IMG/VR virus record: IMGVR_UViG_3300030103_004456
Location: 1 to 37,789 of that record
DNA length: 37,789 nt
Direction: 5' to 3' (one strand)
From: a virus
Below, piece after piece: positions 4,525-5,070 of the stretch. How positions within the stretch are numbered: the stretch's first letter is position 1; each line of letters opens with the position of its first letter. A program made the position numbers and the translations under genes. The notes below the pieces were generated by a model that saw only the letters and a list, made by a program, of their open reading frames with translations, did not search any database and was not told where the DNA came from.

Positions 4525-4576
4525 TTGTAAAAATAGTCGAAAAAAAATCCCGCCAAAAATTTGATCTGTAGGGTTT

Positions 4577-4594
4577 TTGTAACAGTTGTTACAA
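4577..4594. promoter_or_regulatory. Candidate NtcA-binding box
   Basis: A perfect 18-bp dyad, TTGTAACA-GT-TGTTACAA, containing TGTA-N8-TACA. This is the consensus for NtcA, the cyanobacterial 2-oxoglutarate-responsive nitrogen regulator (GTA-N8-TAC). Its centre (4585.5) lies 20 nt upstream of a TATACA hexamer at 4613 and 31 nt upstream of TAGTAT at 4624. The first spacing fits a class II NtcA-activated promoter. The call is from sequence match; binding is inferred. Confidence 0.55.
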
Positions 4595-4600
4595 TATTAC

Positions 4601-4629
4601 TTGACTATATACTATACATGTGTTAGTAT
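4601..4629 (+). promoter_or_regulatory. Sigma70-like promoter of the regulatory island
   Basis: TTGACT at 4601-4606, a 17-nt spacer and TAGTAT at 4624-4629. The predicted RNA start would fall near 4636, just before the first aptamer-like element at 4639, so the element would be at the extreme 5' end of the mRNA. An alternative -10 (TATACA, 4613-4618) fits NtcA-type spacing instead and would start RNA near 4625. Confidence 0.55.
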
Positions 4630-4638
4630 TCTAACATA

Positions 4639-4681
4639 CGTTCAACCTCATAAGAGGTCGCAAGTAAGCCGACTCGGAACG
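4639..4681 (+). promoter_or_regulatory. Glutamine-aptamer-like RNA element 1 (glnA / Downstream-peptide type)
   Basis: P1 is CGTTC 4639-4643 paired with GAACG 4677-4681. P2 is ACCTC 4645-4649 with GAGGT 4654-4658 and an ATAA loop. The single-stranded core is CGCAAGTAAGCC followed by GACTCG. From memory, the cyanobacterial glnA and Downstream-peptide motifs share CGUUCA, a P2 hairpin, an AAGUA-containing core and GGAACG closing P1 in the same order. These motifs bind L-glutamine and also occur in marine phages. Location just after a promoter and before a short gene fits the Downstream-peptide class. Confidence 0.65.
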
Positions 4682-4684
4682 GAT

Positions 4685-4864
4685 CGTTCATCATCGTGTT
4701 ACCAATTCTACTAGCTACTACTTTTACTTGTGCTGATGCCAACTGGATTGCAGAGGGTGTTATTATAAGCGAAACTATACCTGCGGAAACAAAGGTAGAA
4801 ATTTTGGAAGTTATATTAGAAGGATGTTACGGATACGATGACGCAAAAGCCGACTGAAGGAACG
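4685..4864 (+). promoter_or_regulatory. Aptamer-like RNA element 2, split by a nested gene
   Basis: P1 is CGTTC 4685-4689 with GAACG 4860-4864. P2 is TCATCGT 4691-4697 with ACGATGA 4835-4841, extendable to 10 bp (4691-4700/4832-4841) with G-U pairs. The core after P2 reads CGCAAAAGCCGACTGAAG, closely matching element 1 (CGCAAGTAAGCCGACTCG). The P2 loop is replaced by the 53-codon gene at 4696-4857, whose GTG start is in the 5' strand of P2 and whose last codons and stop form the 3' half. A GGGT/ACCC hairpin (4864-4875) follows, before the DUF4278 ribosome binding site. This arrangement is inferred from pairing only. Confidence 0.5.
4696..4857 (+). CDS. 53-residue peptide nested in RNA element 2
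   Basis: GTG start, TGA stop. The N-terminus LPILLATTFTCADANW is hydrophobic and resembles a short signal or membrane-associating segment; the rest is acidic and ends YGYDDAKAD. From memory, many T4-like cyanophages carry a peptide of this type (hydrophobic N-terminus with TCADA, acidic C-terminus) between the same two flanking sequences. There is no Shine-Dalgarno at normal spacing; the start lies inside a predicted helix, suggesting translation is conditional. It may be the peptide of the Downstream-peptide motif. Function is unknown. Confidence 0.55.
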   Translation: MLPILLATTFTCADANWIAEGVIISETIPAETKVEILEVILEGCYGYDDAKAD

Positions 4865-4895
4865 GGTTTCCACCCTACTACTTTGGAGAAAGCCA

Positions 4896-5039
4896 ATGGC
4901 AAAAGTCACTTATCGTGGTGTCGAGTATGACACTGAAGAGTACAACGCAAAAGTTGTTGCAGACGCAACACAGCGTAACAGACACGATTTAATGTATCGT
5001 GGTCTTAAAGTTAGAAGCAAGGCATCACCTTGCAGTTAA
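4896..5039 (+). CDS. DUF4278-like small protein
   Basis: 47 residues. It contains the repeated YRG signature of the cyanobacterial DUF4278 family: VTYRGVEYDT at residues 4-13 and LMYRGLKVRS at 32-41. The GGAG at 4884-4887 is a good ribosome binding site. DUF4278 proteins are short, cyanobacteria- and cyanophage-restricted and of unknown function, so this gene supports a cyanobacterial host. It lies downstream of both aptamer-like elements and directly before a strong terminator, so it is the last gene of a short, specially regulated transcript. The peptide is moderately basic (Arg/Lys-rich second half). Confidence 0.75.
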   Translation: MAKVTYRGVEYDTEEYNAKVVADATQRNRHDLMYRGLKVRSKASPCS

Positions 5040-5044
5040 CAAAG

Positions 5045-5070
5045 AGAGGGGTTGCTACCCCTCTTTTTTT
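5045..5070 (+). terminator. Intrinsic terminator after the DUF4278 gene
   Basis: Perfect stem AGAGGGGT 5045-5052 with ACCCCTCT 5057-5064 around a TGCT loop, followed by a T-run to 5070. It closes the regulatory-island transcript. Confidence 0.9.

Follow-up and report, generated by a model that had tools for sequence, protein, structure and literature searches.

This locus raises the question of whether an inverted repeat upstream of a phage glutamine-aptamer leader is an operator for host NtcA and, if so, whether NtcA would activate or repress the leader. GTA-N8-TAC is the NtcA signature, and NtcA is the known regulator for such a sequence. The window, the 37,789-base virus record analyzed here, has relatives in phage collections that are mostly Synechococcus and Prochlorococcus phages.

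Organization of the leader

The repeat has perfect 8-base arms (TTGTAACA and TGTTACAA) separated by a central GT, which cannot pair with itself (Table 1). The first-pass annotation correctly read TGTA-N8-TACA (4578–4593) within this repeat, but the 18-bp dyad that it called perfect pairs at 16 of 18 positions, the exception being the central GT. Both halves read GTAAC and have the C at the fifth place (GTANC) that is looked for in at least one half of an NtcA site. As also annotated, the box lies directly 5′ of a promoter for the aptamer leader (TTGACT and TAGTAT). The window sequence by itself proves nothing about the box, because its nine GTA-N8-TAC matches are at the chance level of 9.15 expected in shuffles.

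Table 1. Features of the glutamine leader in the window and the basis on which each was assigned.
Feature	Position	Strand	Basis or remarks
NtcA-type box, TTGTAACA-GT-TGTTACAA	4577..4594	+	Core GTA-N8-TAC at 4579–4592, center 4585.5; core and position conserved in related leaders
Sigma-70-like −35 hexamer, TTGACT	4601..4606	+	Sequence read; 17-nt spacer to −10
Late-type element, CTATATA	4605..4611	+	Resembles cyanophage late-promoter CTAAATA/NATAAATA; overlaps −35
Hairpin/dyad UGUGUUAG(UAUU)CUAACAUA containing −10	4619..4638	+	Fold −7.1 kcal/mol, z −4.19
Sigma-70-like −10 hexamer, TAGTAT	4624..4629	+	Sequence read; inferred start near 4636
Glutamine riboswitch aptamer type 1 (RF01739)	4637..4685	+	Rfam 35.9 bits, gathering score 35
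Probable second glutamine aptamer, P2 loop holding a 53-aa ORF (4696–4857)	4685..4866	+	Inferred from sequence
47-aa DUF4278 protein, two YRG motifs	4896..5039	+	Pfam 26.0 bits, cut-off 25.3; phrog_5049, E 9.8e-23
Intrinsic-terminator-like hairpin ending the unit	5041..5068	+	Sequence read

Scores above the respective cut-offs place the first aptamer in RF01739 and the 47-aa protein in DUF4278 (PF14105). The second aptamer is suggested by CGTTC at 4686–4690, a 3′ GGAACG and the arms I2; the Rfam search did not report it and its P1 is not clear in a single-strand fold. The ORF in its P2 loop matches phrog_504 (E 3.5e-8), and related insertions occur in the aptamers of isolate phages. Whole small ORFs are also nested in the P2 loop of glutamine aptamers in P-HM1 (L346), P-SSM2 (L338), L169 and L196, and aptamer-nested ORFs often start CGTTCATCCTATG. 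We presume that the gene regulated by the leader is the DUF4278 gene. In the published work, cited here and below from the portions of text that were available, DUF4278 is the N-terminal part of IF17 and promotes the stability of this glutamine synthetase inhibitor (PMC6316151). A literature search for DUF4278 together with phage found no papers.

The late-type element begins 12 nt after the box core (13 nt for TATATA). Of all 7-mers, CTAAATA is the one most strongly enriched upstream of P-SSM2 and S-SM2 genes, and a cyanophage late promoter of the form NATAAATA has been described, as have overlapping early and late promoters in S-PM2 as a proposed middle mode of transcription (PMC2984593). 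We placed the sigma-70 start by setting the last base of the −10 hexamer as −7.

A conserved element (TCCCGCC...TCTGTAGGGTTTTT, 4530–4579) runs up to the box and recurs elsewhere in many cyanophage genomes, for example between converging genes in Syn19. It is possibly a terminator, though its fold is not unusual (z −0.69).

Conservation in phage and host leaders

Viral glutamine-aptamer leaders were fetched by aptamer pattern alone and their upstream DNA was then inspected. Among the matches listed, 119 of 120 stretches were used, 6 were excluded because their upstream DNA was too short, and merging of near-duplicates left 106 distinct leaders. Fifty of these listed leaders have GTA-N8-TAC at a distal position 52–63 nt upstream (−63 to −52 from CGTTC), where the window's own box begins at −60. 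First-order Markov resampling, the null for box position, gave a mean of 0.87 and a maximum of 5 in the same range. Eleven more of the 106 have the box at a proximal position, 38–39 nt upstream. Conservation of the dyad in related phages, a condition set beforehand, is thus borne out at two fixed positions in 61 of the 106 leaders listed. Furthermore, 57 leaders picked regardless of the box and aligned on the −35 have information peaks at GTA, at a C two bases on and at TAC, with weaker conservation between them. The C at the fifth place of the left half is present in 41 of the 50 distal boxes among the leaders listed.

A search of viral sequence for the exact dyad returned 119 stretches, 49 of which run into a glutamine aptamer. 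Among the remaining 70, nine also reach one on reading, and the first aptamer there carries an ORF. No glutamine leader was found in the cyanophage-like stretches L164, L204 and L217, and the sequence of L209 is incomplete. Eleven isolate phages were examined as well. The match in Syn19 was due to another element; the other ten have the leader and eight of these have the box, which is distal in P-TIM68, S-PM2, S-SM2, Bellamy, P-HM1 and S-SSM7, proximal in S-CREM1 and, unlike other phage boxes, in a host-like place in P-SSM4. The leaders of P-SSM2 and P-SSM7 have no box.

In cyanophage glutamine leaders a dyad encloses the −10, and the arms of this dyad vary between phages yet remain complementary (e.g., AGGTC-TATAAT-GACCT, TGTGTTA-NNNN-TAACACA and GGTATG-CTAA-CATACC). 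The mean arm over 58 leaders was 5.67 bases versus 3.48 with swapped 3′ flanks (maximum 4.05 in 200 trials). In 36 of the 54 leaders with a TAWATA, the stem starts 7–8 nt past this element; in 38 of 58 it stops 2–3 nt short of the aptamer. Arms of at least 6 bases are rare at other promoter-like sites (2 of 39 in P-SSM2, one of them the glutamine leader, and 0 of 47 in S-SM2). Because the stem begins where RNA from the late element would start, we read the dyad as a 5′-terminal RNA hairpin. This covarying hairpin is a further feature of cyanophage glutamine leaders, and we found no description of it in the available text of the literature searched.

Host leaders contain the same three parts. 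Among 201 genomes of the hosts' family, RF01704 (type II) was present in 126 and RF01739 (type 1) in 72. We located 32 of 34 type II leaders (L383 and L384 were dropped) and 30 of 30 type I leaders, the placement of L437 being doubtful. GTA-N8-TAC, mostly as GTAGCA..TGCTAC, precedes the aptamer by 17–21 nt in all 32 type II leaders; it occurs 24–25 nt before the aptamer in 14 of the 30 type I leaders. The idea that the host palindromes are mere RNA hairpins was rejected, since all 32 keep GTA and TAC, whereas the phage −10 hairpin covaries. The phage and host arrangements are not simple copies, because the host boxes are GTAGC-type and differently placed (−17 to −25). Host type I leaders without GTA-N8-TAC (L422, L425–L428 and similar ones) have a conserved GTTCACCATGAAC dyad farther upstream instead.

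Position of the box and sign of regulation

The position of the box relative to the promoter elements is nearly constant. In 28 of 39 leaders its center falls at −50.5 relative to the predicted sigma-70 start, and 13 nt separate the box from TAWHTA in 39 of the 50 distal and 9 of the 11 proximal cases among the leaders listed. Relative to the predicted start set by the late-type element, the box center is at −32.5. With starts so predicted, these centers are within 2 bp of the sites from which NtcA represses pirA and gifA. FNR belongs to the same protein family as NtcA. E. coli FNR is listed as a repressor of ndh and pdhR from −50.5. NtcA represses pirA from −33.5 and −48.5 (PMC8092223), gifA from −30.5 and gifB from −7.5 (PMC6316151).

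NtcA-activated promoters have the box close to −41.5 (PMC8092223), and class II activator sites are followed by N22 and TAN3T. The window's box has no TAN3T at N20–24; among the leaders listed, one follows 9 of the 50 distal boxes and none of the 11 proximal ones, which is not above the background of 73 in 300 windows of the same leaders. In contrast, 23 of 30 host glnA loci have TAN3T 19–25 nt after GTA-N8-TAC (at exactly 22 in 19); the right half there is GATAC, with C at the fifth place as in host glutamine leaders. No canonical activator arrangement was found at 30 host amt loci, so glnA is the one positive control for activator geometry. Class II geometry was thus rejected for the phage box. 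A center at −50.5, a distance of 13 nt to a late-type element and the absence of N22-TAN3T together argue against activation, and the position of the box favors repression. The first-pass annotation had proposed that NtcA activates the leader, citing the gif genes as precedent. The spacing rule fails in the phage leaders and their box positions fit repression sites; furthermore, the precedent points the opposite way, since NtcA acts as a repressor of pirA, gifA and gifB (PMC8092223; PMC6316151).

We therefore propose that the box is a putative operator for host NtcA with a mainly repressive role, and that NtcA release and a glutamine-ON riboswitch jointly gate the DUF4278 peptide on nitrogen sufficiency (probability about 0.6). 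In a nitrogen-starved host, 2-oxoglutarate-loaded NtcA would occupy the box, whose center is at −50.5 for the early sigma-70 promoter and at −32.5 for the late-type CTAWATA start, and block the polymerase at both promoters. In a nitrogen-sufficient host, NtcA would be off the box, the leader would be transcribed and glutamine bound to the aptamers would switch on the peptide. The two inputs would then converge on nitrogen sufficiency as a single output, in the manner of host gifB and DUF4278 genes. Type 1 and 2 glutamine riboswitches of cyanobacteria are ON switches (PMC6316151). The earlier idea that one phage transcript reads both ends of the nitrogen signal probably holds for the two signals, 2-oxoglutarate (via NtcA) and glutamine; the opposing senses assigned to them are not supported, as the inputs probably agree given that NtcA represses gif and pirA genes and that these riboswitches are ON switches.

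A more elaborate gate with three layers is a tentative extension of this proposal. A single NtcA operator would shut the early sigma-70 promoter and the overlapping late promoter together. Since the covarying 5′ hairpin encloses the early −10, it would be present only in the longer RNA made late. Two glutamine aptamers in tandem would follow, one of them with an ORF inside, and the peptide would be made only in nitrogen-sufficient cells, where it could retune host glutamine synthetase or PII signaling during infection.

Activation of the leader by NtcA in a nitrogen-starved host, from an unusual −50.5 position and with the riboswitch withholding the peptide until glutamine returns, is unlikely, yet it is the strongest of the alternatives. 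The register of the box to the −35 is fixed, as in activator sites, and such a constant register can equally mean polymerase contact. The repressive sign is argued from position, and a −50.5 site beside an intact −35 could still aid the polymerase. NtcA sites promoting cyanophage genes have also been proposed (Sullivan et al., 2010; PMC3037559). This alternative is at odds, however, with the distance from the −41.5 of activated sites (PMC8092223), with the scarcity of downstream TAN3T relative to host glnA and with the placement of proximal boxes where gifA and pirA undergo repression.

Identity of the bound factor and related systems

The assignment of the box as a candidate operator for host NtcA is well supported by comparison, and its conservation in related phage leaders supports the annotated NtcA-type box adjoining a glutamine riboswitch. 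Observation of the box in front of the aptamer leader is confirmed, and is stronger than a single sequence allowed. Glutamine riboswitches are also found in phages of SAR11 and OM43 (PMC9004378), whose leaders offer a natural contrast to those of cyanophages. By a rule based on BLASTP of ORFs against P-SSM2 and S-SM2 (cyanophages) and HTVC008M (Pelagibacter phage) only, the box occurs, among the leaders listed, in 58 of 87 cyanophage-like ones versus 3 of the 19 classed as other or unclear. The three boxed unclear leaders lean toward cyanophages in their BLASTP ORF counts. The perfect box is absent from 29 of the 87 cyanophage-like leaders listed, some of which carry degenerate ones. Thus, the box is found where the host has NtcA, as judged across the leader family (58/87 vs. 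3/19 of the leaders listed). Picocyanobacteria have kept NtcA (PMC6316151).

It is less probable still that the box binds another factor, such as a protein of the phage or a different CRP-family protein of the host, or is the upstream element of a cyanophage middle or late promoter. This would agree with the constant 13 nt between the box and the late-type TAWATA, which hold for distal and proximal boxes alike, and with the open matter of middle-gene control in cyanomyoviruses, which have no MotA/Asi (PMC2984593). The near-restriction of the box to cyanophage-like contigs and the presence of the NtcA signature in host glutamine leaders too speak against it. Furthermore, box-N12-TAWATA is no general promoter feature of cyanophages: 11 records contained 8 matches versus 4 to the reversed pattern, and 4 of the 8, including all 3 perfect ones, were at the glutamine leader. 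A chance palindrome without function is very improbable as the origin of the family's box, its chance-level frequency in the window notwithstanding, since position, core and neighbors are kept across divergent leaders.

Among the closest known systems, Synechocystis gifB likewise has an NtcA-type box and a type 1 glutamine riboswitch in one unit with a coding region for DUF4278, the N-terminal part of its product IF17 (PMC6316151). The gifB box is centered at −7.5, unlike the phage boxes (−50.5/−32.5); the phage protein corresponds to the DUF4278 part only, and beyond what gifB has, the phage leader contains a hairpin, a late-type promoter element and another aptamer that bears an ORF. In Prochlorococcus MED4, an NtcA motif in the promoter of PMM1846 has been described earlier together with a glutamine riboswitch and DUF4278 (PMC6316151). 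The phage leader shares this combination with PMM1846 and picocyanobacterial type II leaders but has a type 1 aptamer and a box farther upstream. Synechocystis pirA, with NtcA sites at −33.5/−48.5 that are read as repressive, resembles the phage geometry (−32.5/−50.5), although it has two boxes and one promoter instead of one box and probably two promoters; no glutamine riboswitch for pirA was seen in the available text (PMC8092223).

NtcA sites in T4-like cyanophages were already proposed in 2010, at 1–16 per genome (Sullivan et al., 2010; PMC3037559). Those sites share motif class and phage group with the present box and were read as promoters activated through 2-oxoglutarate, in contrast to the repression favored here. 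The word riboswitch is absent from the text of that paper, and its available portions made no mention that we found of the glutamine leader, its fixed geometry or repression. A literature search, with most subscription papers outside its scope, found no paper joining cyanophage, NtcA site and glutamine leader in the text available. If our proposal is true, the regulatory parts of viruses that infect abundant marine photosynthetic bacteria copy host nitrogen-control logic (a repressor plus an ON riboswitch), and the 2010 proposal becomes a precise promoter with the opposite sign.

One-mismatch matches to box-N12-TAWATA also occur upstream of pstS or an adjoining gene in S-SSM7 (GU071098, 220998–221031) and P-SSM4 (AY940168, 163791–163824), which hints at similar sites for phosphate genes.
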